Below are positions 630 through 64,000 of a stretch of 64,000 bases of DNA, in pieces; position 1 is the first letter of the stretch; each line of letters begins with the position of its first letter. The notes under the pieces were generated by a model. The model had not been told where the DNA came from, ran no database searches, and worked only from the letters and a program-made list of their open reading frames with translations. A program made the translations under genes and the position numbers. The stretch is from Acholoe squamosa (lineage: Eukaryota > Annelida > Polychaeta > Phyllodocida > Polynoidae), in contig OX439051.1 in assembly GCA_949317995.1 (NCBI GenBank), positions 45,759,250-45,823,249 on the forward strand, written 5' to 3'.

Positions 630-1210
630 AAAGGGATCTCCCGAGGGGCAAAGAAGGGGATCCCAGTGACAAATCTTGCCATGATATCACCATCCGTGAT
701 GATAATTCGCATGTAGTAACAAGATCGCCTAACACCGAGGTGGTTGTAGACACCCGGAAGGTTAGGGAAGCTGATATAACAGGTGCCACGGGAGCACAGG
801 GGAAACCCAATATCAGTAACGAGGCAGGCGGCTATGAATTAGCCAAGGTCTGTGGTGCCCACCTGCCCCCGGGTCATCCTTGTCTGGAATTCCTGAAAGG
901 ATGTGGATCGACTCCTGGTGTGAAAAATGACGTTCCGATCGTCACGGACATGCCCTCTGTTTTAAACGGAAGGCGGTGGTATGTTTGCCTCACTGTTAAC
1001 AGAAGATCTGCCGAATTCCTTGTGGATACGGGAGCTAGCCACTCTTGTATCTCCAGGGGGTTCTACGATCTTATACCGGATGAACATGATACTCTCAAAT
1101 CGGGAGGAAGTGCTCAGACGGCCGACGGCAGTACCTTGCAAATGTATGGTAGAACTTGTGTGAAACTACAGTTGGATGGTATACATGACTATGTCATGAC
1201 TATGTCATGA
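620..1210 (+). pseudogene. pol, protease region, copy A
   Basis: The aspartic protease that cuts the Gag-Pol precursor. The frame lies -1 relative to gag and is open from before the gag stop, so expression by frameshifting is the likely mode (inference). The motif AHLPPGHPCLEFLKGCG precedes the domain and is shared with copies B and C. The catalytic triplet is in LVDTGASHSC (about 1021-1050). The frame ends early because an 11-bp unit at 1185-1195 is repeated at 1196-1206 (ATGACTATGTC twice). Copy C lacks this duplication and reads through the equivalent point. The downstream flap/helix part (GILGLDF) continues in the next reading frame. Confidence 0.85.
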
Positions 1211-2187
1211 GCGCGGATATAGCAGATGAGGGGATACTTGGGTTGGATTTCGCATCCCTGTATGGTGCTGTGTTGGAACCTCAAACAGGAGTGTTGAGTG
1301 TGAGATACCCGTATCCCGTAAAGGTTAGATGTGTACTGAGACAAGTGAGCAGTATGGCTAGTGTGGCACACACTGTGCCAATCCCTCCGGGAGTAGCCTG
1401 TGATGTGCTTGTAAGAAGTGATCCTGCAATGCGTAATAAACCTGCAGTGATAGAACCGGATGTAGTTACTTTGTCAAGTATCGGATTAAATTCTGTAGAC
1501 ACGATAGTAGCGAATGCATCCTGGTCGGTAGTACCTGTCTCCAATACTGGAAACACTACTATCTACTTGAAAAAGGGACAAGTTTTTGGAAACGTGACCC
1601 TTTCGGAAACTGTAACGGATAGTAAGCTAAGCTTACAAAAGGTAACAGGGGATGATGAAATTTCGGAAGACTTACTTAAGTTGTATGAAGAAACTTCATT
1701 AGAAGATCCGGAACACCGGAAAGAGTTCTATGATATGCTCTGTCAGTATAATACTGCCTTTGCCAAACCTGGTGAAAAACTAGGTACGACAAATAAAGTA
1801 TTACATAAAATAGATACTGGAGATGCTGAACCCTTTAAGATACCGTATAGACGGTTACCTTTAGCGAAAAAGAGAGTAGCTGAAGATGAGATAAACAAGA
1901 TGTTGGAACAGGATGTAATAGTCCCTTCCAATAGTCCATGGAGTAGTCCTGTGTGTATGGTAACAAAGAAAGACGGTACTATCCGCTTTTGCAAAGACTA
2001 CAGGAAGTTGAATGGAATAACGAAAAAGAATTCGTATCCATTACCGAGAATAGATGAAACCATTGACTCTTTAGGAGGAAACAGCTGGTTTTGTACCCTA
2101 GACTTGCAATCAGGTTATTGGCAAGTGGGAATGAACCCTTCAGATATGGAGAAAACTGCATTTTCGAGTCATATCGGATTATTCTAA
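1207..2187 (+). pseudogene. pol, protease end and RT N-terminal half, copy A
   Basis: This continues pol after the 11-bp duplication. It begins with the protease C-terminal motif ADEGILGLDF, then a linker of about 150 residues, then the RT fingers/palm: VIVPSNSPWSSPVCMV, RFCKDYRKLNG, SYPLPRIDETIDSLGG and FCTLDLQSGYWQV. The last carries the first catalytic aspartate. It stops at TAA 2185-2187 within FSSHIGLF; at the same place copy B has a CAA (glutamine) codon, so a single C-to-T change is the simplest explanation. The frame is unchanged on the other side of the stop. Without readthrough the RT would be truncated before the YXDD box. Confidence 0.88.
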
Positions 2188-2196
2188 TATAATGTA

Positions 2197-8241: not shown

Positions 8242-9768
8242 GCATGCTAGGGTTATTTCTCCCATAATTTTTTTTCTCCAACACCGAATGACCAGATATA
8301 GTCTTTGCGGAACCCTATAGGTCTGCGAATGTTTTATTCACTAGTGTATGAACACCTATAGTATGTGTTCCGGGTCCCTCTTATGTCCAGCTTATTGTAT
8401 AATTCAGGTTGTATAACTCTTATTGCACCCTGAATAGTCTATTCGGATTTATAACTTCACCTATGAACAATCCGATAGTAGACTTGCTGCTGTGAGACGT
8501 ATCCGGATGCCAGTTCCAGATCCCTGCTGTTACCCGTGCTAACCACTTACTAGGATGGACTTTACGATTTACCTCTACAACTCATCTATACTCCCGAATG
8601 GACTTATACCAACTACTACTATTACTTCCGGATCAACCTATATTGGACTATTATCTACTTATGTCAACTAAGCTTAAAAAGGATTACGTTTTCTATATAG
8701 TTGACACATCCGGACTATTATTCTACATTCTACGCCATTCGGATTCACTTATAAACTTTAGCACTACTAGAGGATTGTGGGTAGCTGCCCCAAAATCAAC
8801 TACCGTGTTCACTCTATATAAGGAAACCATAAACTTTAGCACGTCCATCCCGTGGTTAGCTGACCACACCTACCTACTAGTACCCGGAGGATTACAGCAG
8901 AGGACTTCAGCAGCATTTATAATTTCTGTATATTTTATATAATGTCATACTTCTATTTTTCTATAATATTATATGTATGTGCATATCCACTAGATACATA
9001 TTATGATACGGGTACATAGACATTTCTTGATACGGATCTCTGATTATTATTAGTATTCATATTATAAGATCCATTAAACTTCACCAGAAAACACATATTA
9101 TTGTCCTGCGAGACAAATTATATAATAAGTATATTGATCTGGTGATATAAAGGTTATTAGGTACACGGTGATAATATATCATTATTATATTCATTACCAC
9201 ACCGTGATTTTTTTCTTTTCTTTTCAAGTGTATGGTATAAATGGTCCTATTCGTACTACTCACGGAACCCTTAACAGATTCGTATGTTAATAATATACGA
9301 CATGTCATTATATAGTGAAGTTACTATAACAGTCTTCTTTAAGACTATATATTCAAATGTGGTGTTAATAACTACAAACACACATACGGATGTTATTATG
9401 TGATTTATTTATTATCGACAGTTCCGTTACACATAACTGTCATCATCACATGTATACGATTCATATTACTTGTCTTATTAGTTATACCGTAAATATAATA
9501 TAATATTATATGGTATAATAGTTTAACAAACAGTTCCGTTTCACATAACTGTCTCTTATTCAAGTAATTCGTATAATATTTCAACATCCTAATTGCTATT
9601 TGTAACTACATTTCACTATCGAATATATATATATGACATTCGGTTCATACTCAATTTGGTGTTAATGTTATACCTATGGTTGTACCTCTATTACTAAAGG
9701 TTTAGACATGTAGAAATGTTATCCTAGTAATATTATAACTATAACACCCTCCTAAATGTCTGGGGGAG
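8242..9768 (+). other. 3' non-coding region of copy A with polypurine tract
   Basis: About 1.5 kb of AT-rich DNA with no credible ORF. It contains a repeated 25-bp-scale motif around ACAGTTCCGTT...CACATAACTGT at 9418-9443 and 9531-9553. It ends in the purine tract CTGGGGGAG (9760-9768) immediately before the LTR, the expected plus-strand primer. A comparable AT-rich stretch of about 1.1 kb follows ORF3 in copy B. Confidence 0.55.
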
Positions 9769-10186: not shown

Positions 10187-11243
10187 AACGCAGCTAGACG
10201 ACAAGCCATCCTTCCAAAGATTTACGGGGGCGTAAAAACCTGGAAAGAATGGTTTTCGAACTTTACTGACGACATGTGATGCAATGCATGGACCCCAAGG
10301 AGGCCATGCCACACCAGAATTGCTGCCTGAAACACGGTCCAGGCCGGATAGCTGTTGAGAAATGGAATGAAGTATACTTCGAAAGAGGGACATTCCAGCA
10401 GTTAGTCGAGATTGCCAGTATTTTGCTGTACAACCTAGTGAGTGAAGATTCTTTTATGCTCTTCAAGAAGCTAACACAGAAACCTCAGGAATCATTTCGA
10501 GCCTACGGATACGAGCTGCAGTCTCTGTTACAGAGGGCCCGCCCAGGCACCAACCCCTCAGACAAATACTTTCTGAACGATTTGTTACCACAATTCATGC
10601 AAGGACTTCGAGATGAAGACCAACAGCAAGCAGCCATAGATGCTTGGAAGGGTAGAAACCCCACCCTTATGGATCTGTTCGAAGGAATCGAGTGCTGGAC
10701 AGTAAAGAAGACCCTCATGGCGGGGAAAGTGGAAATTAAGACCACAAACACCAAAGTTTGTGCAAGTACTAGCACTAGTACAACCCCCATGTCAGGGATA
10801 CACCAACTGACACACCCAGAAATGGCAGACAATGATTTTGAGATCATTGAAATTGAGGAGGAGGACGGAAGCATCTCCGCCGTACAAGTGAAAAGAGATG
10901 TGAAGCGTAAGTATATTCCTCGAAGAATAACAGAGCTCGAGGGGAGACAAGACCCACCACAGATAATCGAACTACAGAGATGGCTATAAGCCGCCCTCCA
11001 AGGCAACCTGTAGCAAGAGCCCCTGCTCCACCTGAGCCACTGGACATGAAAAAGATGATGGAAGATTTCATGAAAACGTTCGCTGAGACGATGTACACTA
11101 GACCTGAACGACGTAGGGTAGATCGAAGCAGGCTACGCTGCTACCGTTGTCAAGAGATGGGACACCATGCTCATGAGTGCACGGCCCCAAAGCCCGTGCT
11201 ATCCCGAATTAATAACGTAGAGAAGCCTGAAGAGGAAAACTAA
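10187..11243 (+). pseudogene. gag remnant, copy B
   Basis: Homology to copy C gag begins near ARRQAILPKI (about 10196). The frame is broken at TGA 10277-10279 and again near 10975. Between the breaks, 10276-10989 encodes capsid-like sequence (LTQKPQESFRAYGYELQSLL and FMQGLRDEDQQQ). The last part has the CCHC zinc knuckle CYRCQEMGHHAHEC (about 11139-11180) and ends EEN at TAA 11241-11243. The coiled-coil and Gly-rich N-terminal half seen in copy C is absent, so the remnant starts almost directly after the LTR. Confidence 0.85.
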
Positions 11244-11257
11244 AGAGGGTCACATCT

Positions 11258-11557
11258 GTGGCAAAGGATGTGTTCCGTAATTCGAAAATCTGCCAAAATG
11301 CCACCACTGGTGAGCCCGAGTTAGTTGGAGAGTCAGTACCTTCTGGGGGACTGGTATGTGGGAAGGATCCGCCCACCCCAGTCCGAGCCGGGGGCTTCGA
11401 CGGGGTAGGGACAAATGAGGGTCGGAACCCAGGCGAGAGATCCTGCGTCGAAGAAGAGGGAGGTTGGGTTGAAGGTTGGGCGGCACACCTCCCCCCGAAC
11501 CATCCATGTGTAACCTTTTTGAAGGGTTTTGGATGGGAGATCGGTGATTCTCAGTAA
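11258..11557 (+). pseudogene. pol, pre-protease segment, copy B
   Basis: In the -1 frame relative to gag, as in copy A. It ends with AAHLPPNHPCVTFLKGFGW, which is equivalent to AHLPPGHPCLEFLKGCG of copy A, and then meets an in-frame TAA at 11555-11557. The same frame resumes afterwards as the protease. It is a nonsense-interrupted part of pol, not an independent gene. Confidence 0.7.
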
Positions 11558-11587
11558 CAACTCCGATTTGCACAGAATTCCTCTCCT

Positions 11588-12811
11588 TTGGGGGGGAAGC
11601 GTTGGTACATTGCTGTATCGGTGAAGGGGCGGACTGGAGAATTTTTGATTGACACTGGTGCCAGCCATTCATGTGTCTCGAGAAAATTCTTCAATCTGGT
11701 GTCCGGCAACCATGAGACACTACCTGTTGGTGTTAATGCTTGCATGGCCGACAGTAGCCAGATGCAGACTTTTGGCAAGACGTTCATACAGATTGGAATG
11801 GGGGGCTACGAGTATGTGATGAGCTCCACCATTGCCAACATAAGTGAAGATGGAATAATCGGTTTGGATTTCGCAAGCTTGTATGGCGCTGTGTTGGATC
11901 CCCGTTTCGGGATGTTGAAAATTCGGCAACCATACAACTGCGAGATCCCATATTTATTGAGACATGTGTCTTCGGTAGGCCGAACTAGCAAGGTGTTACA
12001 CACGCTTGACACTGCCGATGCAAAGCCATTCAAAATACCCTATAGGAGACTACCGCTGAAAAAGAAAATGGAGGCCGAAATGCAAATTCTCGATCAGTTG
12101 GAAAAGGGGGTTATTGTGCCCAGCACGAGCCCCTGGTCCAGCCCCGTGTGTATGACTACGAAGAAGGACGGATCTATCCGATTCTGCATAGATTACCGGA
12201 AGTTGAATGGTCTGACTAAAAAGAATTCCTATCCCTTACCAAGGATAGACGAGACTTTACACTCTCTAGGGGGAAACAAATATTTTTGTACCCTGGATCT
12301 CCAATCCGGGTATTGGCAAATCAGGATGGACCCGAAGGACATGGAGAAAACTGCTTTCTCGAGCCACATGGGTTTGTTCCAATACAATGTCTTACCTTTT
12401 CGGCTGTGTAATGCACCAGCCACTTTCGAAGCTATGATGGAGGAGATGCTAAGTGACCTTCTCTGGAAGAGTTGCTTGGTATACCCTGACGATGTCATAG
12501 TATTCGGGAAGACTTTCGAGGACTGTATTCACAACCTCCAGTTAGTCCTAAAGAGGATACTATCTAATGGTCTGAAATTAAAGGCTAAGAAATGTAATCT
12601 ATTCAAAACATCTATTACTTATCTTGGTCGTATAATAACTCCCGACGGCGTAAAAGCCAACCCTGAAAAACTCCGGACAGTGTCCAAGTGGCATAAATGC
12701 GAAGGAAATAAGATCCTTCCTAGGGTTCTGCTCGTACTATCGAGATTTCCTCCCGAACTATTCTTAAGTGAGCTCTCCTTTACAAATATTAGCACATTGG
12801 ACTCCAGGTAG
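11588..12811 (+). pseudogene. pol, protease fused by deletion to RT, copy B
   Basis: The protease active site is FLIDTGASHSC (about 11641-11673), followed by GIIGLDFASLYGAVLD. The sequence then passes from LLRHVSSVG almost directly to SKVLHTLDTADAKPF. Copy A has about 140 more residues between these points, so roughly 430 bp were lost in frame. RT follows with SPWSSPVCMTTKKDG, SYPLPRIDETLHSLGG and FCTLDLQSGYWQI. The catalytic box reads YPDD (12482-12493) where copy A has YLDD; both aspartates remain. The frame is lost near 12710-12770. Confidence 0.85.
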
Positions 12812-13415
12812 AGCAAAGGAACGTTTTCCCTGGGGAGATGAACAAAATGCAGCCTTTGAGCAAATAAAACACCTGTTTGCTAACACACCAGTATTAAAAT
12901 ATCCTACAGTGGATGATCATTTCATACTGGACACCGACGCTAGCAATGATAGCATTTGCGCAGCCCTGTTGCAGGTCCAGGACGGGGTCGAAGTACCTAT
13001 TGCTTTCGCTAGTAACACACTGAATAGGGCACAACGAAACTATTGCACCACTAAATGTGAGTTGCTGGCTCTGGTGGTATATACCAAAAAGTTTCGACAC
13101 TTCCTATGGGGCACCGATTTTACACTTCGAACGGACCATTCCTCCCTGAGGTGGCTCCTTAACTTCAAGGACGCCGAAGGAATGATTGGCCGTTGGCTGG
13201 CACACCTGTCAGAATTTGGGTTGGAGCATAGCCAGATCCAACACCGAGCGGGTTCGAAGTATGTTGATGCGGATGCCCTATCGCGAAGGCCCATTAGAAA
13301 ATGCCAGAAAATCGATTGTGATGATTGTAGAGCCCACAACGCGGTAGTTGCTACAGTTCGAAACAGACAGGTCGAACCCCTATCGTATGCCTGTACGGAA
13401 AATGTTGTAGAATGA
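12768..13415 (+). pseudogene. pol, RNase H region, copy B; integrase lost
   Basis: The connection/RNase H part resumes in a new frame: LAHWTPGRAKERFPWGDEQ, FILDTDASNDSICAALLQV and RTDHSSLRWLLNFKDAEG, ending near ENVVE at TGA 13413-13415. A short further stretch (to about 13530) still matches the region before integrase in copy A. The sequence then changes to the pre-ORF3 spacer. No HHCC or DDE residues are present, so the whole integrase (about 1.3 kb) is deleted. This copy could not integrate. Confidence 0.85.
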
Positions 13416-20356: not shown

Positions 20357-21586
20357 TTAACTCAGTATTCTCTTTTTGAACAAATCTTTTTCCTCGAGAT
20401 TTTGAACATCTGCAGTTAAGCGGTCCCACAATAACATACCTCTATAAAGAGGGCTTTTTCTGTATAGTTCACATGTTGGACGACTGACCTTTAATTTCAG
20501 TTTATTATTACCTCGCAATATCCTAGTCGGGACAATTACATTTTCTGGGTCCTTCACATATCGATGTATAATCACCAGTATCATTCGCTCTCTTCTAACT
20601 AATAATGGTACGGTATCAGTTCTAGCTAGCAAATCTTCTACATGTACATCCTGAGGATCTCTGATTCGCATACACATACGCAGGCAATTATTCTGTATCA
20701 CTTCAAGATGGTTCACTATTCTTTCAGGACCGCTATCTATTATAAAGTTACAATATTCAAAAGTCGGCAGGACCATATGTTTATATATTTTCAATGCTGT
20801 CTCACTGTCTAGATAGCGCACAATGTTTGACAGTTGGGCCAATTTTGCATTGGCCATAGACTCCACCTTCCTACAATGTAGCTTAAAGTTTAGATCACTG
20901 TCTATGATTACCCCAAGATAATTAAATTGCTTCACAGTATTAATTACCTTTCCATCCAGATATAGGATAGGTACATGTATTCTTATTCTGTCAGAGTGAC
21001 ACCATAGTGCTTTGGTCTTTTTTACATTCATTGTGAGCATATTTTTTTCACACCATTGTTGTACTCTCATGAGATCAGCCTGAACTAACTCAGCCATTAT
21101 ATCCGTACTACGGCCATTCAATACGACGGCTATATCATCCGCATATAGATAGTACTCACTGTTTTGGAAACAATTTATAATATCATTTAAATATACAATA
21201 AATAGTAAAGGGCCCAGCACTGTGCCTTGTGCCACACCACAGTTCAATATTCTTTGTGTTGATGTATCTCCATTCGCTTTGGTTACCTGATATCTATTCA
21301 TTAAGAAACTTTTCATCCATCTTATACAACTCACATCGCACCCAATATGCTGTAGTTTTGATAATATGATGTCCAGATTTACCGTATTAAAGGCCTTTTT
21401 CAGGTCGAGAAATATCACCACAGAGAAAACACCTCTATTCCTGGCTTCACATAGATATTGAGTTAAACCAAACGTCGCATTTACTGTAGATCTTCCAGGC
21501 ATAAAGCCAAATTGTTTTTTACTTATTATGTCATTATTTATTAGATGCCTCATAATTTGGGCATGTACATGTTTTTCGATTAACAT
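20357..21586 (-). pseudogene. LINE reverse transcriptase, C-terminal part
   Basis: A 409-codon frame. Early residues (LIEKHVHAQIMRHL) match the RT finger region; then KKQFGFMPGRSTV, VIFLDLKKAFNTV, GVAQGTVLGPLLFIVYLND and YLYADDIAVVLNG carry all catalytic positions. A thumb region with FNYLGVIIDSDL and a C-terminal YRGMLLWDRLTADV follow. It ends at TAA in 20357-20359. The domain is intact but its start is out of frame with the upstream part, near 21580. Confidence 0.88.
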
Positions 21587-21851
21587 TTGTCATTGTGATG
21601 GGCCTCCAATTGGTGACATCGCTAAGTGGCCCGTCTTTAGGTAAAGGTACAACATATCCTATCTTTAAATCACTCGGGATATTCCCTAGCAACAAAGATC
21701 TATTAATGAACTCCTGCAATAGTTCCGGCCTGGTTAATAAACAGTCACGCAATACATTAGTTCTTACATGAGCAATACAAGAGCTCTTACTTCCATCCAC
21801 TGTCTTCAATACCTTTATACAGGAGGCACTCGTGATATTATTAATACTCAT
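21534..21851 (-). pseudogene. LINE RT, N-terminal fragment
   Basis: Encodes the pre-RT region and first fingers (SLLLGNIPSDLKIGYVVPL, TNWRPITM). The frame then runs out of homology and overlaps the next segment. A small deletion and frameshift near 21575-21590 removes the residues normally found between NWRPI and the EKHVH helix. The ATG overlaps the stop of the preceding segment as ATGA, so a 1-base shift separates them. Confidence 0.75.
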
Positions 21852-22640
21852 TCCACATCACAACCAGGAAATTCCGGTATATAAGGAACATTGTCTTCAA
21901 AATTCTCAGCAAGCTTATTTCCAATCTCAACATAGTATTTATTAATATAATTCGCAATACTGTCTTTTTTCACACTACTGCCGTCAGCATATTTCAGGCA
22001 TATTACTGGATTTAAATCTTTACCTTTCCAGTTACTGTTTATAACCTTCCAAAAATGTTTTGGGTCATTTTTATATTTGTTCAAATTATACAAAGTTATT
22101 CTCTTGCGTTTTGCATCAAGTTTGACCTTTATAGACTTTTTCAGCCTTTTTGCCATAATTATATGTTGATTGTGATACCTGTCGTCGGCCTTCCGGGCCT
22201 TTTTAAAACATCTTTTTTTCCTAGCAATCAATCTATTGATTTGCTCATCAAAAAATACATCATTCTGCCGCACTACTCGTGTACTAATAGGATGGTTTTG
22301 ATTCAAGTATGCCTCTACATTTGACACAATCACATTATATATCTCGGCTTCCGTGCTATCAGGTGCATTGACTAATGTCCAATCCTTCTCACTCATGTAA
22401 TTATCCAGTGCCAATTTCGAAAAGTTACGGTAATCCCTACCTATTACAGTTGCTTTGGGTTGTTTTTTAACCATAACTTGCTTTCTTATCACATACACCG
22501 GGACATGGTCCCCACAGATGTCATTACAAAGTCCAACTTCCTTTACATTATTACTATTCGTATAAAAATGATCCAGTATAGAACGACCGTGGGGGTGATA
22601 GTATGTGGCAGTGCTTTTACAGTGGTGCACCTTGCACTTG
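21848..22640 (-). pseudogene. LINE endonuclease end and linker
   Basis: The first recognisable part is the C-terminal end of the endonuclease, HPHGRSILDHFY and CGDHVPVYVIRK (the SDH/GDH catalytic region). A basic linker follows (KKRCFKKARKADDRYHNQH) and then FWKVINSNWKGKDLNPV. The open frame extends to 22705, but its first 20 codons come from the flanking repeat, not the LINE. It stops at TGA, overlapping the next ATG. Confidence 0.75.
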
Positions 22641-23030
22641 AAACAACTAATAACCGCTGCTATATTCCAGTTAGTAAACACTGCAAGTAAACTACTAACG
22701 TACAATGCTTAATAAATGACACATTTGCAATGCTTAATAAATTATTCATCTGCAGCCCTGCATTTGCAACAACTAGTAACCACTGCTTTGGTCCATTTAT
22801 TCAACACTGCTTATTCAACACTGCAAGTTCAGCCCTTCTTAAGCAATGCTGAACATTGGTTAATAAACCAACAATATGCACCCCTTGATAAAAGATGCTA
22901 AATCAACACTTACTAAGCAGTGCTACTGCGGCTACGCAATTGCATCTACTAATGAACATTGCTAAGCTGCACTTAATAATAGTTGATGTTGCAGCACTAT
23001 ACATGCAACACTTACTAATAACTTAATAAA
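22641..23030. repeat. CTAGTAAACACTGCAAGT repeat field, right block
   Basis: Many degenerate copies of ACTGCAA, CTTAATAAATGA and CTAGTAACCACTGC words. They continue after the miniature element, around 23340-23400 (GTGGCTAGTAAACATTGCA). No coding potential. Confidence 0.6.
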
Positions 23031-25690: not shown

Positions 25691-26022
25691 TGGATAACTT
25701 CTTCCCATAGAGATAGCATTGCAGGGCCGATCCGCACACCCCCAGTGGTGTAACATGTGCCGATCCTCCACAGCGGACGATCCGGTACCGTAGCCTCATT
25801 CTAGGTGCATGTAAACATTCAAAATGGCGGACCGGCGCTCGTACGGGGAACCACAGTACCAGATTTTGATCATTTTTCTTTATTTAAACCCTCTAAAAAC
25901 ATAAAATAAATATAGAACTAAACTCCCCTGGTGTCCTTGGTGGCCGATCCACCCCTCGGGGGGGGGTCTCCCCCTCGTGGTGGATCGGCCACGTCGTACA
26001 CCACGGTCTTTAGTTCTATCTA
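25691..26022. mobile_element. Insertion with hairpin between minisatellite blocks
   Basis: About 330 bp unrelated to the array. Its right part folds on itself: TAGAACTAAA and TGGCCGATCCACC (25914-25960) pair with TGGATCGGCCA and TTTAGTTCTA (25980-26018), with mismatches. The array after it restarts with a near-exact copy of 25589-25670, so insertion and array duplication are linked. Element type unknown. Confidence 0.45.
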
Positions 26023-26440
26023 TTTATGCCATGACCAGTGCACACCAGAAACTTAATGCATTGTTTAGGGCACACCAGACACTTTATGCAATACCTGGTG
26101 CACACAAGATACTTTATGTATTGTCTAGGACACACCAGACACTTTATGCAATGACTGGTGCACACCAGACACTTTATACAATACCTGGTGCACACAAGAT
26201 ACTTTATGTATTGTCTAGGGCACACCAGACACTTTATACAATACCTGGTGCACACCAGACACTTTATACAATACCTGGTGCACACCAGACACTTTATACA
26301 ATACCTGGTGCACACAAGATACTTTATACAATACCTGGTGCACACAAGATACTTTATGCAATACCTGGTGCACACAAGATACTTTATGCAATACCTGGTG
26401 CACACAAGATACTTTATGCAATGCCTGGAGCACACAAGAC
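26023..26440. repeat. 30-bp minisatellite, right block
   Basis: About 14 units of 30 bp with two main variants: CACACCAGACACTTTATACA and CACACAAGATACTTTATGCA, each followed by ATACCTGGTG. Two units fill each 60-base line. Higher-order alternation of the variants is visible. Because 30 is divisible by 3, several artificial open frames cross it. Confidence 0.9.
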
Positions 26441-26867
26441 TCTTTATAAAATGTTGGGGAAATACCAACAACACACTTCAACGTTTGGCCTGAAACATAC
26501 ACTATCATTAAACCAGAGGCAATAGCATCTCTTCAAGATGCGATCTTATATAATTTAAATATTTGAAACTAACTCATTCTGATGGTACTTGTACAGTTAG
26601 AAAACATTATATATAAAACATGACACTAAGACCACTAGAAATTGTCTCATGTCATAAATCATCATCAGTATCTACCATCACTGTAATTTTTATATATTAT
26701 TCCTTTTTGAGATATGAATGATACAAAGATTCCATTATTCGAGACAGCTTGTTCTGTGACACTCAATAGGTACTTCCTTCTTCAGGAAATTAGTCACATA
26801 AGTCTCATTCACAATGATCTAGAGAAAATATAAGATATTGATCAACTCAGCAACATTCTGTCTGTAA

Positions 26868-48100: not shown

Positions 48101-51100
48101 TCACATCATTACCTTTTAAAGGCCAGTCGTGCATCATGGAGCCCATTTGCCAGCATGATGCATGAATGCAGCCCTTGTGAGTTACTCACCAGTAGCCCTG
48201 GTGAGTTACTCTCCAGGGCTGCATTCATGCATCATGCTGGCAAATGGGCTCCATGATGCACGACTGTCTTTAAAAGGTAATGATGCCATGCTGTTTCAAG
48301 GGTTCAAATTCATTTGTCAGCATGATGCAAATTGATGAAGTGCTGCCTGCACTACCATGGTGGTGCATCATGCTAACCCTTCCATGCTAACCCTTCAGAG
48401 ATAAGCTCACAGTCAGGCTAGATGCATTCAGGAATGCAGCACATTCACGAATTAAACCCGAAATAAATATTTGCAATTATATTTACACAATTGCCACTAA
48501 TTTGTAAGATTATTTGATAATTATTGGACACATATATCATATCGGCAGCAATAGTTATAGCTTTTAAGATATCAATGGCCTTTTTATATGTGCAGGTGCA
48601 ATGATTTATATGGTTATAGATAGATCAAAGTATCTGGGCGTTTGTTGTGAGGCTTTTTGGTGCAGCCGTCGCCGAGGTATACACTTATAAAAATTAATGC
48701 ATGACCCATCTGGGCCCGCTTTCAGAGGGTGGGTTTACCTTAATTCTGACACTTGGCTATTTATGTCTGTTTAGGCCTCTTTGAATCACATAGAACACGA
48801 GGATCTTGTATCTCTAAATGTAAATCCTACATGTAGGGGTGCACCTTATACTGAACTCAGTGTAGTGTGTGTCTTACATGTCCTCCTCCCTCAATCACAA
48901 ATTCAAAATCATACCATTAACTCATTTGTACAAATGAACGGAGTACATTTAACTGGGTAACAGAAAATATTTTTAAAAAAAAAAGAAAAAAAGAAACACG
49001 AGTAATTAGAGAGATCTATCAGGTCACCAGTGTGGTTATTGGACAGTTTTGAAATGCTAGAAAACCCAAAGTGATGATCAATACTTGTGTACCTTATACT
49101 ATATAGAGTAAAACATACATCTATGCGTTGTGACGCTAGCCTAATTCACTCTCTATCAAATACATACAGACTCTTATAGTAGAACTAGTATACTGCACCA
49201 CAAGGAATTGTGAATAGTTAAGGAGATAGATGTATAAGCTTAAAGATGCAGTTTGAACAAGTTAGCCCTTTGAATACAGCATGTTGCCATGAGCCTTCAT
49301 GTTCTTCCATCAACCTGAATTCATGCAGTCCTGGGAGACATTTCCTAACGTGCTACGATTTGATCAGGTTGTAATTTAGTTGTTCATGATGATTCTCGTA
49401 CAACTTGAAAAGTTCAAATTATAGCCGTCTTGACCCCGGAATTGATACTTTTTCAATGGGTCCGTACAAAGGCGATGCATTGCAGTGCCTGTCAGGATAT
49501 AATTTGATATCAAAGTCTTTGATTGTGATATTGAAGTTTCTTTCTCGGATATCAGGCTCTTACTCTGTTATCGAACCAGGGATATCAAAGTATGAAACAT
49601 TTTTTTCTTTATAAATTCAAAGTTTAATTGTAATGCAGTCAACATATATGGTTTAATTGCCATAGGCGCAACATTGCATCAGTGACTTGAGGCTTGAGAC
49701 ACCATGCTACTTTCAAAGGGTCCTATTTAAGAGCTGCTAATGCATTGAAACATCATGCCTATTGGTCGTCACAATGCACCAATGAAGACTGACCCGCACT
49801 TCATTGGTGCTTAACGCCAATCCTCCGGGAGTGTGCATCTAACCCCCATAAGGCCAGCATGATGAATTAATTGCACTATCAGAATTCAAGGGCTATAGGG
49901 AGAAGGGGTAGAAGTAAAGTCAAACACACGTGCCTGGTTTCGTACCTTGGACTTGCGAATCTTCATGATGACGAGCCCTAGCACCAACGTGATGGTCATG
50001 GTGAAGGTTTGGATGCCGAGTGGTACGCCGCGTATCAGCACATCATACTGTACGAAGCACGGCTCAGCGCTCGAACACTCCAAACAGCCTTCGGAACATG
50101 GTAAACATGTATACCTGTCACCATAGTCCGAAGACAAGTTCTGCAGCTGGTTGAGGTAGCTGCGTTCGACATCAGTGCCATTGTAGTAACCCGCATGGTT
50201 CTTGGTGCGCTCGTATGCCGGGAAGAAATAGCCTCGTGAACATACGCACTTGTAGCTTCCCCGTCGGAAACCCTGATCACTCACATTTTTGCACTGCAAT
50301 AGAAAGGTTTGTGTATCTAAGGTTTTGATGATGATCGATAATATGGAGTGAAATCGTAACGGCATTATCATACTTTGATATCAAACTGTTGTAGAATGCA
50401 TGCATCAAAATTAATAGGGAATGTTGACCTTTCCTCCATGAGAAAATATCTCTCAGACAATACCAAATACTAGAAACAGCGAGGACAGCAACATGTCCTC
50501 TACTCGGGTATGTTTCAAAAGGATTAACAATTTGACACTTGAGATTTTTGTACGTTCATAATCGTAAGACCATATGGTGAACGTAGTTTTCAATTACACA
50601 ACACAAAATCATACAAATTCCTGGTCAAGGCTCCAAGCTATCTACAAGTAAAGAACAAGTAGTGTTGTTGTACATTGTGAAGGACTATTTGCACTATCAC
50701 CTTGGACGATTTGCTTTGTACTAAATCATTGTTGAGACCTATTTTCTGCTAGAATCTGAAAGTGGTGGTCGTAGAGCCATTTGGTGATCGTTAGTCGTTC
50801 TGAAACATACCCTGGGGGGTATGTTTCAGAACGATTAACGATCACCAAATGGCCCTATACACTCTCCACATTCAGATTCTAAAATATAGTAGGAGGTAAG
50901 CCCTCTAGACGATCACCAACTAACTTGTACAAATCAAATTGTACAAGGTGATCATACAAATATGCCTACAAAATACCGGCATATGAAACCACTACTTATT
51001 CTATAGTTGTAGATAGTCTGTGGCCTTGTAGAGAAATGAGTAGCATTTTGTGTTGTGTAATCGATTCCTACGACCATGAATGTACAAATCTTGCGATTGT

Positions 51101-55956: not shown

Positions 55957-56616
55957 TTCACTCAATTTATCGCTGGTTTCTGAGACTCGGAGCATAAGAC
56001 AATAGCCTGGGACAAATGGAAAGATGATACTTCTTTCAATGATTTGTTCCTGGCTATAGAAAATTATGACAGAAAGAAGCGATTGTTAGGTGCTAATGCA
56101 CCCCCTGCAAGAGCTTCGGCAGTTAAAAGTGAAATCCCTGTACTGGAATACACCGCTTCAGTTGAATCTGGATCATTGGATTCCGACTATGAATATGTCT
56201 CTGATGAAAATGGGGAACATATAGGATCAGTACAAATCGCCGGTAAATACTATCGGCAGAAAAGATACAGGAAGGTGGGTTTGAAGAAGAAATCTAACTT
56301 CATTAAACCTACCGGTAATGCCTCGCCGGTGCCACCCCAGCTACCGGTACCTCAGAAACCGGTATCTCAACTACCGGTACCGCAGCTTCCCAACTTCTCA
56401 ACTCCCCAAGTAGCAGTGTCTACTGCTCAAGGTGATTTTATGGAGAATTTGTTTACCTGGTTAATAGATGCACTGATATGCCCACGGGTGGATAAATCCC
56501 AAAGACAGTGTTACCGATGTCAAGAATTCGGTCATTTTGCTGCCAATTGTATTGCGGAGAAACCTGTATATAGGTCGCGGATGAGTTTTTCTACAGTAGA
56601 AGATAAGGAAAACTAG
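55957..56616 (+). pseudogene. gag C-terminal part, copy C
   Basis: After another stop (TGA 55981-55983) the frame reads KWKDDTSFNDLFLAIENYD, EYVSDENGEHIGSVQIAGKY, a Pro/Val-rich linker with repeated LPVPQ, and the zinc knuckle CYRCQEFGHFAANC (about 56509-56550). It ends EEN-like (DKEN) at TAG 56614-56616. The longest open piece is 56044-56616. Confidence 0.85.
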
Positions 56617-56655
56617 AGGGGGATTCTGTTATGGGCAAGCAACGGGATCCCAGAA

Positions 56656-57684
56656 ATGTCACTTGCCATGATATCACCAACAGTGGTACAGAACCGAATG
56701 TATTCGCCCAATACTGAGGTGGTTGGGGAGCCCACTCAGAAGATTGGGGAATCCGGTATAACAGGTGCCCAGGGAGCATGGGGGAAACCAGGTACTGGAT
56801 TAGAGGTAGGAGGTCATTTGTTGGCCAGGGTTGGTAGTGCTCACCTACCCCCAGGTCATCCTTGTCTGGAATACCTAAAAGGATGTGGATGTGACCCGGG
56901 TGTGAAAAATGAGGCTTCTGTAGTTACTGATATACCTCCCGTGTTACAGGGAAGGCAGTGGTATGTTTCACTTACTGTCAATGGAAGACCCGCTGAATTC
57001 CTAGTGGATATGGGAGCTAACCACTCATGTGTCTCTCGGAAGGTAGTGGATCTTATTCCGGATGTGCATGATACTCTCCTAATGGGAGGAAATGGCCAAA
57101 CGGCCGACGGTAGTAAGATGCAGACATATGGTAGGACGTGTGTAAAATTGCAATTGGAGGGTACTCACGAGTATGTGATAACCACCACCATTGTCGGTAT
57201 AGCGGATGAAGGGATATTAGGATTGGACTTTGCAATACTGTATGGAGCAGTGTTAGACCCACGGTCAGGTGTATTGAGTGTGAAGCATCCTTATCCAGTT
57301 AGAGTACAGTGAGTATTGAGGCAAGTCAACAGTGTGGCATCCGTCGCCCAAACTGTAAAGATTCCTGCGGGAGTAGCATGTGACGTCCTGATCCGGAGTA
57401 ATTCCGAGTTAAGGAATCAAGCTGCAGTAATTGAGCCGGATACAGTTATGCTGGCTGCTATAGGATTGGAATCGGTTGATACAATAGTAGCCAATGGTGC
57501 TTGGTCAGTCACACTAGTTTCCAACCCAGGTACTAAGACAATATATTTGGAGAAAGGATCCATTTTTGGTAACGTTACATTGTCTGAGACAGTAACGAGT
57601 TGTTTCTCCAGTGAGATGTATGGAGAAGGTTCCAAATCTATATTAAATGTGGATAGGATCATAGAGCCTTGCTGTGGTATCTGA
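56656..57684 (+). pseudogene. protease and pol remnant with internal deletion, copy C
   Basis: AHLPPGHPCLEYLKGCG is followed by FLVDMGANHSC, where the normally invariant catalytic DTG is DMG. Then ADEGILGLDFAILYGAVLD. A TGA at 57310-57312 interrupts; the frame continues with RQVNSVASVAQTVKIPAGVA to NVTLSETVT. Here it jumps to SSEMYGEGSKSILNVDRIIE, which corresponds to the residues after the GPY/F module at the end of pol in copy A (about 4501-4560). About 2.9 kb of pol is therefore missing. Confidence 0.82.
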
Positions 57685-58307
57685 CTTGAGTGTGCTGGGT
57701 GTGTTCGAGACACTACTACTACAGTTAGTAACAGTAACTCTACAACTTTAAAGTATACAACTATTCTTTAAGCAACTACACTGTGGGAAACCCCCATAAA
57801 CTATATATTGTTAGAATCGTGAGATCAAGCCTGATTCAATGCACTTGATAATTAGTGGGTCTGACGCACATGGATTGGAACCGCTCTACGTGCTCAGCAA
57901 CAAAACTGTCAGGCAGACAGTCAGATCGTGAAAAATTCAAAGTTTGCCAGAAAGTAGACGCTCCAAGGGTTCTAGATCCAAAAGAATTTTTCAAATTGGA
58001 TGGTTCTAACCGGTCCATATTGAATGTCTAACTGAATGCACCCAAAGGTATGGAGGCAGGCTCTATGTAACATGTAGTGGCCATACATGGCTCCATGTCC
58101 ATGTGTTCTCAATTGTCGGTGCTGTATCATCAACTTAACCACATATGAAATATGAGTATATAACCCAGTGAACTACTGCACAGGTCGATTCCCTATTAGC
58201 TGTCCCTCCCCAGCCCTATTGTGACTAAATACCCAACACTGGTCAAGGTTTAGTCAGTTGGTAGGGGTCAGACCTTGTGCATCTTTAGACTTCGCCCAGG
58301 TTTTAAT
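57685..58307. other. Junction and LINE 5' untranslated region
   Basis: The first 100 bp may be the last part of copy C. From about 57800 the sequence is probably the 5' UTR of the L1-type LINE. The exact border is not visible; no LTR, target duplication or ORF. Confidence 0.4.
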
Positions 58308-59789
58308 ATGTCAACATCAAATGTCAGTGATCAATGTGGGGGTGCTGTATCTATTCCAACCAGTGCACCACTGGTCACAATGGAGAGCAACTCATCTGGG
58401 GAAGGGGAGACCCCCATAGACTGTAAAAACACTGACAAAGCAGTGAAAAAAAGAATGCCTGACGAAGCAGGACTGTCTGATGACGATACTGATAGAAAAC
58501 TGAGGGTCACCGAAGAAGCCCACCAACACCAGTCTAACAGCGGGGTAGCTGGTACTGCTAGCAAACCTACACTAACCCAGAACATCAACCCTGAGGAGCT
58601 GAGTTTACTCACGCTAGCTAGAACTTTAGCCAGGATCGAGGAACGGCTTATCAGAGTCGACAATACTGGTCAAACTACTGCAAACGACATCAAGGAATTC
58701 AACGATAACCTTTCAAGTGTGGCGGAGGATGTAGAAATCAACAAAGGCGACATCCAGGTCCTGAAGGAGCAAGTCGCTAAGCTCCAGAAGGATCTAACGG
58801 AAACAAAGAACGAACTATCAGAGATGAAAACCAAGCTGGAGGAAACTGAGATACAGGTTAAAGGAAATAAGGCTCACCTCGAGAGAAATGAGGACAACAC
58901 CATCAAACAGGAAGCGTACTCAAGAAAATTGAACTTACTGCTGGATGGCCTCCCAGAGGGTGAAAACGAAACATCTGAAAGTTTGAGGGCAGAGTTGGGA
59001 AGAATCTTTTGGCGTCATGCAAAAATGGAGAGTAGCTGCATTGACGTGGCTCATCGCATTACGAGGAACCCTGGACAAGCTACAAGGCCTGTACTAATAA
59101 GGCTGAAATTCCTGGTTGCAAGAAATAAATTGTGGGGGCGAAGAGCACAGTTTAGGGACTACAAAGTAAACGGTGCCCAACTCTGGCTCAGTGAGGATAT
59201 CCCCACCAAACTGAAAGGGGAACTAGCTAAAGTTAAAAAGACGTATTGGGTGGCCAAGAACCATGGCACTTACAGAGAGGTGAGAATGTCGGGCACATCC
59301 CTGTACCTCGATGGCAAGCTCTACAACAAAGAAAACTGGGACACTCTTCCTGAATATCTGGGACCAGAGGCTCTGGCTACACTAGAGAATGAGAACACCG
59401 TAGTTTTCTTCACCAAGGCCTCCCCTTTTAGCAACCACTACCCTGCTACATTTAAGATTGGAGACAAGACCTACACATCAATGGAGAAATACCTCGCCAT
59501 ACAAAGGTGCATTATCGCAAGGCGTGACGACTTAGAGAGACAGGCATGGCAGCTGGATGTGCCTGCCAAGCTAAAGGGCATACTACACAAGTGCAAGGAA
59601 GAGCACAAGGACGAATGGATCGCTAAACCCAAGTCCATTGCAATGGAAGGGATTAGGGCTAAGGTCCAACAAAATCTACTCATTCGCCAGCGTCTCCTTA
59701 GCACAGGAAATAAGGTTATTGGTGAAGCCTCAAAAGACGCTGTATGGGGCATAGGGATGAGACTGACTGATAAGAACGCCTTAAACTAA
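58308..59789 (+). CDS. LINE ORF1: coiled coil, L1-type RNA-binding domain, NADAR domain
   Basis: ATG at 58308 (the open frame extends to 58275 without an ATG). Residues 1-110 are Ser/Thr/Glu-rich. About 120-205 is a heptad coiled coil (LKEQVAKLQKDLTETKNELS). About 205-350 resembles the L1 ORF1 RRM and C-terminal domain (RKLNLLLDGLPEGENE, DVAHRITRNPG, RPVLIRLKF). From about 364 it reads as a NADAR/YbiA-like domain: VVFFTKASPFSNHYPATFKI, YTSMEKYLAIQRC, RQAW, then RQRLLSTGNKVIGEAS and WGIGM. The chain stops at TAA 59787-59789, although the same frame continues with the expected last NADAR motif. NADAR proteins act on ADP-ribose/NAD-related substrates; here the role is unknown. Confidence 0.85.
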   Translation: MSTSNVSDQCGGAVSIPTSAPLVTMESNSSGEGETPIDCKNTDKAVKKRMPDEAGLSDDDTDRKLRVTEEAHQHQSNSGVAGTASKPTLTQNINPEELSLLTLARTLARIEERLIRVDNTGQTTANDIKEFNDNLSSVAEDVEINKGDIQVLKEQVAKLQKDLTETKNELSEMKTKLEETEIQVKGNKAHLERNEDNTIKQEAYSRKLNLLLDGLPEGENETSESLRAELGRIFWRHAKMESSCIDVAHRITRNPGQATRPVLIRLKFLVARNKLWGRRAQFRDYKVNGAQLWLSEDIPTKLKGELAKVKKTYWVAKNHGTYREVRMSGTSLYLDGKLYNKENWDTLPEYLGPEALATLENENTVVFFTKASPFSNHYPATFKIGDKTYTSMEKYLAIQRCIIARRDDLERQAWQLDVPAKLKGILHKCKEEHKDEWIAKPKSIAMEGIRAKVQQNLLIRQRLLSTGNKVIGEASKDAVWGIGMRLTDKNALN

Positions 59790-59864
59790 GAGCTATGGTC
59801 TGGAAAAAACCTGCTTGGTAAAATTCTTCAGGAGGTGCGCCAGGAATTTGAGGATACTGCATAA
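59790..59864 (+). pseudogene. Detached C-terminal end of the NADAR domain
   Basis: In frame with ORF1 after its stop: LWSGKNLLGKILQEVRQEF and a TAA at 59862-59864. NADAR proteins end with a W-x-G-x-NxLG-x-x-LM-x-VR pattern, which this matches. The TAA at 59787 is therefore read as a nonsense mutation in an originally full domain. Confidence 0.75.
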
Positions 59865-60245
59865 CTTACTCGGTCCCAAAATGTGTACATGTATGTGTAT
59901 ATGTGTGTATTGATGGTAATGAATGCAACAACTGGGTATAACCATGTGGTGCTCAAGATTCATTCAACTTAGGGATGGATCTTCTTGTGTGTTTATGTTT
60001 ATCTGTTATTTGTGTGCGCAAGATTATGTACATCATTTTGGTAGTTGTGTTATTGTATTTCGTTTCTATGAGGTGCCAACAGAATGTTAGCAAGGCGTAT
60101 ATGATGATATATGAGTATTGTACCCTCACAGCATGGCTGTGGATGATTGTAAGACAACTGAACCTAAAAAGTAGAGTTATTGATACCCCACAAATTCTGT
60201 GTAAAACCAAACATAATATGACCCCTATTCTGAATCCAAAAGGCT

Positions 60246-63098
60246 ATGACCAATAACACAAGAGTGATTAACCTATGCTCTTTTAATGTTAATGGCATAA
60301 GGGTGAGAGATAAGCGAAGAGCTATTTTCAAGAAGCTAAAGGATGAAAGTTATAATATTGTCTTCCTTCAGGAAACCCACTGCACAGCAGAAGTAGAAAA
60401 GATTTGTAAGGCTGAGTGGGGTGGTGATATGATATGTGCAAATGGCAGCTCATCATCCAAAGGTGTAGCCATACTCTTCAATAGAAATTACCCTTACAAG
60501 TGCCTAGAAAAGACACTGGATGCCAATGGGAGGTATATTATATTACACATCGAGGTTCAGGGAGTGGATTATGTCTTATGCAATATTTATGCTCCAACAC
60601 AAAACTATGAAGCAGACCAGATGGCTGTATTAGATGAAATATCAGATAGATTAAAAGGCTATGAAGTCGAAAACCTTCTCCTTGGAGGTGACTTTAATGA
60701 AACCCCGGACCCATATATAGACAGAAGGGCAACTAATAGTATAAGGGCAGCTAATAAGCAGTATAGGAAGCAAATATACAGTCTACAAGATACTCTCAGC
60801 TTAGTGGATATATGGAGAGTTAGACACCCTAATTTATGTAGATATTCTTTTCATAGGCAGGAGCAAGCATCCAGGATAGATTTCTGGCTAGTGTCTGAGC
60901 ATTTGACAGGCTTTGTTCATAAAACAGATATCCGTCCTGGAACGCTATCTGACCACAGTAAGGTAACACTGGGAATCTCCAGTGCTGACCAGGACAGAGG
61001 CCCAAATGTGTGGAAGTTTAATAATACCCTTCTCTCAGATAAAGACTATGTGAATCAACTTAAGACTATGCTTGGAAAATGTAAGATAGAATACCAGGAT
61101 CTGGCACCCAATGCGAAGTGGGAGATTCTGAAGTATGAGATAAGGAAATTTTCAATTAACTACAGCAAAAAGAAGAAGGCAGAGTCTAAAAAGGTAGAGA
61201 GGGAGGTAACAAACAGTCTGGGCAAATTGACTGCAGCCTTTGATGAGGGCCATGATGTAATTGATGAAATGGAAAGTGTTAAGAGAGACCTAAAAGATAT
61301 TGAATTAAAGACAGCTAGAGCCATCATGTTTAGGTCAAAAGCGAATTGGTCCCAGTTAGGTGAACGACCAACCAAATACTTTTTGAATTTAGAAAACAAG
61401 AATTTTATGGACAAACTTATTACTCAACTGAAAGATCAAAATGGGCATATAGTCACTGAATGCAAAGATATCCTTAGCGTACAGAAGCAATTCTACAGAA
61501 ATCTATACTCAGATAGCTATAGAGAGTTAGATGATATTGATGACCGTTGTCCCTTCACAGATACAAACAACTTAGCTGTCTTGTCTGACAACCAGAGAGA
61601 GATGATAGAGAGACCCTTATCAAAGTCAGATTTTCTCAACAGTCTTAAATCCTTAAAGAATGGGAAGTGCCCAGGCACTGATGGGCTAAGTGCGGAGTTT
61701 TATAAGTTCTTCTGGACTGATATTGGGGATAATGTTAGTCAAAGTCTACTCTATGCCACGGAAACGGGCAGCTTGAGCCAAGAACAGAAACGTGGCATTA
61801 TAACCCTTATCCCTAAAAAGGAAAAAGATAGACTCCAGCTAGGAAACTGGAGGCCGATCAGCCTGCTGAATACAGACTATAAGATCTACACCAAGGCCCT
61901 GGCAGAAAGGATAAAACCCCACCTCCCTAGTATTATAAGCTCAGATCAATCTGGATTTGTTAGGTCAAGGTATATAGGAACAAGTATTCGCACAGTTGAA
62001 GATATATTAGCATACACCACAAAGTTAAGTCGCCCTGGTATTCTGATGGTGGTTGATTTTGAAAAAGCATTTGATAAGATAAGGTGGGAGTTTATCTTTA
62101 AGGCACTTGAAAGGTTTGGATTTGGGGAAAAATACATCTCATGGGTGAGGATATTATATAAAGACATTGTTGCCTGTGTCATAAATAATGGGTACACAAG
62201 TGACTGGTTTGAACTTGCATGTGGAACCAGACAGGGATGCTGTCTATCGCCTTTTTTGTTTGTTATTGCTGTAGAACTGTTAGCTCATAATGTACGCATG
62301 AATGTAGATATTAAAGGTATAAGACTTGGTACTAGAGAAGTAAAGATATGTCAATATGCTGCTGATACCACTTGTTTTATCGAATCAGCAGCAGCTCTGC
62401 ATCACCTGCTAGACTGTTTGAGAAGGTTTAGGAGGTACTCTGGTCTAAAGGTGAATAGATATAAGACACAATATCTTGCACTTGGTGGTATTGACACTAG
62501 TCAGACTGGATTGGAGGGTCTTGCAAGGAGCGAAAGATTGATTGTCCTGGGCATCTCTGTAGCACCGAATAGGACAGAAGCCCAAAATTACTCGTGGAAC
62601 TTTGAACCCCAGATACAGAAAATCACCAACATAAGTGATGATTGGAGGCACCGCAACATCTCACTCAAAGGTAAAACTATCATCATAAACAGCCTAATGC
62701 TACCATGTGTGACGTTCCCGGCCTCAGTCACCACTACACCATCTAGAGCAATAGATGAAGTCAATAGAATTATTGACAAATTCCTATGGGGCTCCAACAG
62801 GAACAAGGTAGCCAGGGCACGTGTTCAGGCACAGACTAAACATGGTGGACTTGCAGTAGGCAATTTTAAAATGAAAATCATTGTATCTAACATAAACTGG
62901 ATCAAAAGGTTCTATTGGGATACCACCATGGTTCCATGTGATTTTATTAAGTTATTTCTCCATGAAGTGTCTGGCTTGAAACTGTTCATTCATACAAAAT
63001 CAGATATTAACATACCACGAGAAGCAAGCCCATTCTATTATCAGGTTCTCAAGGACTGGCATGAATTCCAAAATAGTAAGAGAAACGGAGGTCCGTAA
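60246..63098 (+). pseudogene. LINE ORF2: endonuclease and reverse transcriptase
   Basis: ATG at 60246. AP endonuclease: CSFNVNGIR, VFLQETHC, GGDFNETPD, SRIDFWLVS and TLSDHS, all catalytic positions present. Long linker, then RT: NGKCPGTDGLSAEFYKFFW, GNWRPISLLNTDYKIYTKAL, DQSGFVRSRYIGTSIRTVED, MVVDFEKAFDKIRWEF and TRQGCCLSPFLFVIAVELLA. The catalytic box reads YAAD (62355-62366) instead of YADD: GCT for GAT in the first Asp codon. The frame ends early at TAA 63096-63098 because of a 1-base frameshift shortly before it; the protein continues in another frame. Confidence 0.9.
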
Positions 63099-64000
63099 TG
63101 AAGTATTGTGGAAAAATAAGTTTATTACTATCAATAATACACCAATATTTTGGAAGTCGTGGAGGGAGGCTGGTATTGTCAGGGTTGAAGATTTACTGGA
63201 TAATGGAAGTTTTATGTCAGACACTCAAATTTCTCAAAGGTATGGTGTTCAGTGTAACTTTCTTCAGGCTCTACAAATCCGACAAAGTATACCAGGTAGC
63301 TGGAGAGCTAGCATATCCAGTGACGAAATTCAAAGGCCAAATGACTGTATTTGGGTCATTGATAATACCCCAGATGTAGTTAATCTCTTTTCAACATCAA
63401 GCAAGGAATTGTATTGGATAGTTCTATACCGTCACTCACAACAATTGCCAAGGAATGAAATGAAATGGGCAAAAGTCTTTCCTGAGGTCCAATTTACAAA
63501 GGTTCCATGGTATGACATATATATGTGTCCATACCAAGTGAGTAGGGAAACAAAGTTACAATCATTTCAATATAAGGTACTCCATAAAATACTAGCTTGT
63601 AACAAATACTTGTTTGATATACGTGCAAAGGAAAGCCCAGAATGTGTATATTGTGATGGTAAGACTGACACTCTTGATCACTTCCTTGTGAAATGCCCCC
63701 CAGTAGCCTACTTTTGGAAGTCAGTCATACGATGGATAAACACTGTTGCTAAGATTGATACAGGGAATTTAGATGAGCATGAATTGATACTTGGATTATG
63801 TAGAAAAATTCCAAATGGTGATATCATCAACAATGTAATGCTTAGAACCAGGTTTTACATTTATAGGCAGCGTTTGTATCACAAGTGCCATCTTGATCTG
63901 TTGCAATGGATATATGCAGTCTGGAGAACAAGCAAAAGAGGTTTAGGAAATGGGAGGCTATTTTGGACTCAATGTAACCGCTATGCATACACTGAAAGAA
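63094..64000 (+). pseudogene. LINE ORF2 C-terminal region, shifted frame
   Basis: The +1 frame is open to the window end (RNEVLWKNKFITINNTPIFW). It holds the C-terminal zinc-binding motif CVYCDGKTDTLDHFLVKC (CX2CX8HX4C, near 63643-63696), as found at the end of L1/Tx1-type ORF2, then a helical tail. It belongs to the same protein as 60246-63098. Confidence 0.85.

Follow-up and report, generated by a model that had tools for sequence, protein, structure and literature searches.

Does the LINE at the end of this stretch of Acholoe squamosa DNA truly carry a NADAR domain on its ORF1 protein, is the domain a property of a whole element family, and what would a retrotransposon do with it? A preliminary description of the 64,000-nucleotide stretch that was analysed (the window) had proposed that a NADAR (YbiA-like) domain is fused to an L1/Tx1-type ORF1. 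The features of the LINE copy in the window are listed in Table 1.

Table 1. Positions of the LINE copy and its parts in the window
Feature	Position	Strand	Evidence or remark
LINE copy, L1/Tx1 type	57658..64000	+	blastn against eight genome copies; 3' end lies past the window edge
ORF1, 493 aa	58308..59789	+	terminal stop codon absent from the fetched relatives
ORF1 coiled-coil part (approximate)	58605..58922	+	weak coiled-coil Pfam matches at about residues 96-203, under curated cut-offs
RRM and CTD, L1-type ORF1	58932..59324	+	approximate limits, carried over from P0001
NADAR domain, C-terminally cut short in the window copy	59394..59786	+	Pfam E 1.7e-16; 8bau, 2b3w
Glu393, equivalent of E43 of Phytophthora NADAR (distal ribose)	59484..59486	+	mapped on 8bau
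Glu473, equivalent of E125 of Phytophthora NADAR (catalytic, YbiA-type)	59724..59726	+	mapped on 8bau
Detached last NADAR stretch, GKNLLGKILQEVR onward	59790..59864	+	3' of the in-frame stop; in frame in relatives
ORF2, endonuclease and reverse transcriptase	60246..63098	+	Pfam; human L1 ORF2p match

Identity of the domain and type of the element

The C-terminal third of ORF1 is, by profile match and by the modelled fold of an intact relative, a NADAR domain with the YbiA fold. The search against Pfam NADAR (PF08719, hmmscan) gave a significant match to residues 370-487, with 57.6 bits against a curated cut-off of 35.1 (E 2.4e-15), and the domain run alone scored 61.3 bits (E 1.7e-16). The remaining Pfam matches of ORF1 were weak, below cut-off and largely to coiled-coil families. 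NADAR was found by Pfam in 6/6 L1-type ORF1s. A profile made from the window ORF1 and five database relatives (P0001-P0005) matched the NADAR 8bau (E 1.2e-17) and YbiA, 2b3w (E 2.7e-7), in the PDB. Modelling the truncated domain of the window copy from its sequence alone gave a poor, uninformative fold (mean pLDDT 45). The AlphaFold model of P0001 showed a coil at residues 75-174, RRM and CTD at 176-307 and NADAR at about 326-482, with a mean pLDDT of 72.8, a pTM of 0.43 and values of 79-94 in the NADAR region by blocks of ten. Foldseek ranked 8bau first for this model (E 3e-9), followed by LINE-1 ORF1p chains (2yko, E 1.2e-6) and YbiA, 2b3w (E 2e-6). The fusion proposed earlier was thus borne out both by a Pfam score above the curated cut-off and by the fold of P0001; the NADAR motifs quoted for it were present in ORF1, and the coordinates given for the NADAR region were right, though the domain in the window copy is cut short.

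The element showed the features of the L1/Tx1 superclade, namely an APE-type endonuclease and an L1-like reverse transcriptase in ORF2 and a coiled coil, RRM and CTD in ORF1. ORF2 matched human L1 ORF2p (8sxt) over residues 1-885 (E 6.3e-103), together with Pfam RVT_1 (E 1.9e-38) and Exo_endo_phos (E 3.5e-14). The ORF1 profile matched human LINE-1 ORF1p (2yko) with E 8.6e-4, amid similarly scoring coiled-coil chains. These matches agree with the L1/Tx1 type given in the preliminary description. The coiled-coil region was also backed by the helix at residues 75-174 in the model of P0001, and the predicted order of the ORF1 protein, shown by profiles and this model, is coiled coil, RRM, CTD and NADAR.

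Two narrower assignments of the domain were tried and rejected. The riboflavin-intermediate N-glycosidase subfamily (NCBIfam TIGR02464) scored 71.8 bits, slightly below its cut-off of 73.7, on the cut-short window copy only. The DarT1-associated (BC4488) antitoxin NADARs did not fit, with Glu, not Asp, at the last-strand catalytic position; the rule that Asp or Glu at this position separates DarT1-linked from YbiA-family NADARs was taken from the available part of PMC11125620. We grouped the LINE NADARs with the YbiA family, and not with the DarT1-linked one, because of the glutamate at position 125.

The window copy and its family

We searched the window's own genome (1.48 Gb, 63 contigs) for further copies. 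Since 150 of 1529 candidate places were scored, the copy counts are lower bounds. The scored places included at least 84 close copies (the window among them), which aligned over 124 or more of the 133 residues with an identity of 90% or higher. Stops lay inside the NADAR domain in 8/84 of these, and frames of at least 523 aa were present in 31/84, 29 of which had no stop inside the domain.

Eight same-family copies, all from other contigs, were fetched. ORF1 had a complete tail in seven of them, where its frame runs for 518 aa counted from the first Met, and L042 was shifted inside the tail. ORF2 matches were present in all eight, in one piece in six (five at 97-98% identity, L041 at 84%) and in two pieces in the other two (95-98% identity). 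The DNA identity of the fetched copies to the window was mostly 97-98%, with single pieces from 83 to 98% (blastn). The domain therefore proved to be family-wide, in at least 84 close copies and with complete ORF1 and ORF2 in the fetched ones, which answers the refuting condition set in the preliminary description, that no further copy of the family would carry it. Alignments to the window copy spanned 57658 to 64000 in 6/8 genome copies, and L038-L040 and L043 reached about 420 nt further 5', so that the window copy is 5'-shortened relative to the longer copies. Target-site repeats of 11-15 bp together with a poly(A) end were found in L039, L040 and L043 (3 of 4 copies tested), and no repeat was found in the fourth, L038. 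Such end repeats and the poly(A) end are marks of target-primed reverse transcription.

The ORF1 frame of the window was open from 58254 to 59789 with its first ATG at 58308. Its stop is a TAA at 59787-59789, after which the same frame continues for 24 codons to a stop of its own at 59862-59864. We assessed read-through of this stop position in P0001-P0005 and in the eight fetched genome copies: 5/5 database relatives read through it, and the stop at 59787 was absent from 8/8 fetched copies. On the relatives and copies so assessed, a premature ORF1 stop as a trait of the family was therefore rejected. The ORF2 frame of the window breaks near 63098 and resumes in another frame up to the window edge. 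The window thus holds one damaged copy, broken in both ORFs, of a young multi-copy LINE of L1/Tx1 type. No second NADAR was found in the window at E 1e-3 (tblastn of the domain).

In the fetched sequence L045, two segments of about 600-700 bp (about 340-1650 and 8036-9399) matched the same 5' region of L038, with the start of another window-family copy directly downstream of them.

A second LINE lineage with a NADAR ORF1

Weaker matches in the genome led to L051-L057 and L058-L061, each with an ORF2 match downstream of a NADAR-bearing frame; in L059-L061 this ORF2 match is broken or short. NADAR was detected in all four second-lineage ORF1s scanned (L051, L052, L053 and L054; E 1e-14 to 2e-26), and the ORF2s scanned (3/3) gave RVT_1 and endonuclease matches. 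L050 was placed in the same lineage by its ORF2. Three of the ORF2s (frames of 956-977 aa) were 30-36% identical to one another over nearly their full length, and matched the window ORF2 in the RT core only, at 22-28% identity. The best PDB matches of two of them were R2 or L1 reverse transcriptases at about 1e-14. Because the ORF2 matches to the window and to PDB reverse transcriptases are distant, these elements are not close relatives of L1. L054 and L055, on different contigs, were 99.7% identical over 5.5 kb. What is new here, as read from these sequences, is that the genome holds another LINE lineage whose ORF2 is very different but whose ORF1 has the same RRM-CTD-NADAR cassette.

Some neighbouring sequences were also recorded. 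An extra frame of 239-265 aa with no Pfam match lies between the NADAR ORF1 and ORF2 (L051:3847-4563:+, L052:4776-5570:-). L044 contains a stretch matching the ORF2 of the second lineage (719 bits summed to the L054 probe) near its window-family copy. In the window itself, a decayed LINE on the minus strand at 20357-22708 has a reverse transcriptase 31-32% identical to that of the second NADAR-LINE lineage and 28% identical (130 residues) to that of the window's L1-type ORF2.

One cassette or two fusions

The ORF1 sets of both lineages aligned in hhalign with E 3.4e-39 over 310 columns. Between the lineages the RRM-CTD alone gave E 1.5e-18 and NADAR alone 9.4e-26, and the crossed control gave 0.65. 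The LP that closes the CTD and the SN motif of NADAR stood 28 residues apart in 12/12 ORF1s from both lineages. The alignment of the cassette and its junction of constant length (28 residues) favour a single fusion, after which ORF1 was exchanged or was inherited by both lineages from a very old common ancestor. On this evidence the domains were probably joined a single time, and two distant lineages later used the resulting RRM-CTD-NADAR cassette with their own ORF2s.

We also built NADAR trees. The outgroups were chosen by LINE-derived patterns, with 17 confirmed loci among 141 stretches of viral contigs and 12 among 125 of genome contigs. Seven of 35 rows, near-duplicates or short, were removed from the first tree (L003, L008, L012, L013, L014, L028 and L029). 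The second tree (41 rows) lacks the same seven, L048 and L050 (split frames), L055 and L057 (near-copies) and the same-family copies L030-L038 and L040-L045. In the 41-row tree the 10 L1-type NADARs formed one clade (100/97), and the nine second-lineage NADARs branched without clear resolution beside short-type NADARs. The NADAR tree by itself does not show one origin, and the free tree leaves the two LINE sets ununited. This would fit an independent gain of NADAR by each lineage, with the common spacing set by constraint. However, constraining all 19 LINE NADARs to group together was not rejected (p-AU 0.158), and RRM-CTD, linker and NADAR all align in register, so we regard two separate gains as unlikely.

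Among the rows sampled, which include no animal host NADARs, those nearest to the LINE NADARs were the viral contigs L001, L002 and L004, then Firmicutes L018-L021 with L005-L007. A search of the viral contigs with ORF2 gave no matches. In viral contig L002 the NADAR gene lies near NAD-metabolism genes (NAPRTase/NAMPT, and Nudix plus cytidylyltransferase-like) at 2601-3656 and 7745-9235.

Conservation and selection

Identity between P0001 and P0002-P0005 was 35-39% in NADAR and 19-27% in RRM/CTD, and between the window and P0001 it was 58% and 52%, respectively. In the second lineage, L051 and L052 were 61% identical in NADAR and 35% in the rest.

For five same-family pairs the NG86 dN/dS of NADAR was 0.18, 0.08, 0.03, 0.32 and 0.04, with 0.21-0.31 for the rest of ORF1. 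NADAR was thus at 0.03-0.08 in three pairs, and in the other two (0.18 and 0.32) it was near or above the rest of ORF1 (0.21 and 0.26). The pair L054/L056 gave 0.056 for NADAR against 0.21 for the rest of ORF1, and L054/L060 gave 0.071 against 0.094. The order was reversed for L039 and the decayed copy L046 (0.29 against 0.14), and synonymous sites were saturated in five further pairs. All these dN/dS values are rough, with few changes per pair, pairs that are not independent and changes in young copies that are partly neutral. In most comparisons, though not in every one, NADAR was better conserved than the remainder of ORF1, which points to a real target of the domain.

A functionless one-off, by capture of a host gene or an assembly join, would suit a window copy broken in both ORF1 and ORF2. 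Against it stand the number of close copies, the complete ORF1 and ORF2 of fetched copies, the target-site repeats, relatives in other sequence collections and the low dN/dS in most pairs. It was rejected on copy number, target-site repeats and selection, and we consider it extremely improbable.

Active site

Active-site residues were mapped on 8bau, with roles taken from the available part of PMC11543638; the glutamates are aligned with more certainty than the surroundings of R79 and R93. Compared with the Phytophthora nicotianae NADAR (8bau), which is a separate enzyme, the L1-type ORF1s share the fold (E 3e-9) and kept E43, K75, W89, E125 and W133 in 6/6. In contrast, R79 was replaced by Y, H or N and R93 by A, P or I in all six, and K50 was replaced in four (R, R, Q, R, K, K across the set; Arg in the window copy). 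The D130 position was D in four and N in two. Among 22 other NADARs, 21 have R or K at the R79 position and 20 at the R93 position.

In the nine second-lineage NADARs the K50 position was K in three, M in four, A in one and R in one, the K75 position was K in five and M in four, and W133 was Y or F in seven. Both ribose-binding glutamates (E43 and E125) and W89 were kept in 19/19 LINE NADARs, some of which are near-copies. Because the phosphate-side residues are changed, and in the second lineage W133 also, the LINE NADAR pocket differs from that of enzymes of proven activity. Judged from the alignment, such changes at the phosphate-binding positions may point to a different substrate or to a domain that simply binds.

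Plain binding is the basis of a second reading of the domain, in which NADAR would serve as a reader of, or dock for, ADP-ribose or nucleotides, would hold the RNP at repair sites or on ADP-ribosylated chromatin, and would hydrolyse little if anything. The changes at K50, R79 and R93 on the pyrophosphate side (and W133 in the second lineage) with the ribose glutamates retained would agree with it, and PARPs act at DNA nicks such as the LINE endonuclease makes. However, binding alone need not demand both catalytic glutamates, which all 19 LINE NADARs compared have kept. Moreover, in the available part of PMC11543638 a K-to-R change at the K50 position of a bacterial NADAR (K95R) kept hydrolysis in vitro, but did not give rescue. 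We consider a role in binding alone somewhat unlikely.

Predicted role of the domain

As predicted from its sequence, the domain most likely equips the RNP of the element with a de-ADP-ribosylating activity. Trimers of L1 ORF1p coat the RNA of their element. An ORF1p multimer on the RNA of the present elements would bring NADAR active sites onto the RNP, which would then carry many of them. These sites would hydrolyse ADP-ribose, or a related N-glycosidic adduct, from element RNA, nascent cDNA or target DNA, and the hydrolysis would remove a modification, host-made or related to damage, that otherwise stands in the way of retrotransposition. The counter-defence role put forward in the preliminary description would agree with the retention of the catalytic glutamates and with purifying selection as estimated from the copies.

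ZAP is a PARP-family protein without transferase activity. This human antiviral protein restricts LINE-1 (PMC4423928 and PMC4441479, available parts). Bacterial NADARs reverse toxin-made DNA ADP-ribosylation. Hydrolysis of guanine-ADP-ribose by bacterial and eukaryotic NADARs is described in the available part of PMC11543638, and that of PMC11125620 terms the roles of animal NADARs unclear.

A processing role on element RNA or its 5' end, unrelated to defence, has also to be weighed. RNA processing has been proposed for retroelement NADARs in the available part of PMC12477816, and such a role resembles this Ectocarpus-paper proposal, or the suggestion from nematode SNA-3. However, the reactions described for NADARs in the sources available in part concern guanine-ADP-ribose and riboflavin intermediates, with no RNA processing among them, and we hold this role to be improbable.

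The whole account, in which the fusion was made once, the cassette came to be used in two lineages and NADAR borne on ORF1p would act in de-ADP-ribosylation on the RNP, falls in our judgement a little short of an even chance. That a single-fusion RRM-CTD-NADAR ORF1 was passed between two deep LINE lineages and selected as an eraser of nucleic-acid ADP-ribosylation is possible, though on the doubtful side. If it were true, host animals would use nucleic-acid ADP-ribosylation against retrotransposons. The elements offer a system for seeking an ADP-ribose modification that acts on retrotransposons, and one cassette in two LINE lineages is a clear case for studying ORF1 exchange.

Comparison with known systems

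The NADAR-ORF1 fusion itself is already known, because PMC12477816, the one paper on this fusion among those listed by the literature searches, has it in oyster LINEs: one sentence of its available part notes the domain in the ORF1s of several Crassostrea gigas Tx1 families. Those elements share with ours a NADAR (YbiA-family) domain in ORF1 of L1/Tx1-type LINEs. They differ in being given as divergent Repbase hits, which we compared by their description only, and the oyster account, as far as available, holds no copy, selection, active-site or second-lineage analysis. The same source reports NADAR in Ectocarpus Gypsy elements, likewise NADAR-bearing retrotransposons, with the domain there sitting in Pol. 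The word NADAR is absent from the main text of a paper on bivalve transposable elements (PMC10294476). Neither a second-lineage NADAR ORF1 nor the common junction nor the pattern of selection was mentioned in the papers listed by the searches, whose scope mostly excluded subscription journals. The locus is thus part of a young LINE family with a real domain fusion; the fusion was printed earlier for oyster, and the present data add a second lineage that shares the cassette.

Human LINE-1 (2yko, 8sxt) shares with the window family the coiled coil, RRM and CTD, the endonuclease and reverse transcriptase, the poly(A) end and the target-site repeats. Human ORF1p terminates with the CTD, whereas in the window family NADAR follows it.

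Replicase polyproteins of animal RNA viruses also carry NADAR on a replication protein of a genome parasite (PMC9503650, available part, and BFVD matches), in an RNA virus polyprotein as against the RNA-binding protein of a retrotransposon. The available part of PMC9503650 proposes that these viral NADARs reverse host ADP-ribosylation, a precedent for the logic of a LINE NADAR that would remove ADP-ribose.

Other features of the window

Scans of the window for tRNAs and against Rfam gave no matches. LTR-retrotransposon-like relics were noted by eye at 590-4821 and 10270-13415, with protease- and RT-like frames, and at 55984-57684, with zinc knuckle and protease-like frames; the third of these relics reaches up to the start of the LINE copy. 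At 25905-26525 lies a run of tandem repeats that look coding (GAHKILY/GAHQTLY), with open frames on either strand. A frame on the minus strand at 49886-50380 gave the impression of an exon of a host cysteine-rich membrane protein.
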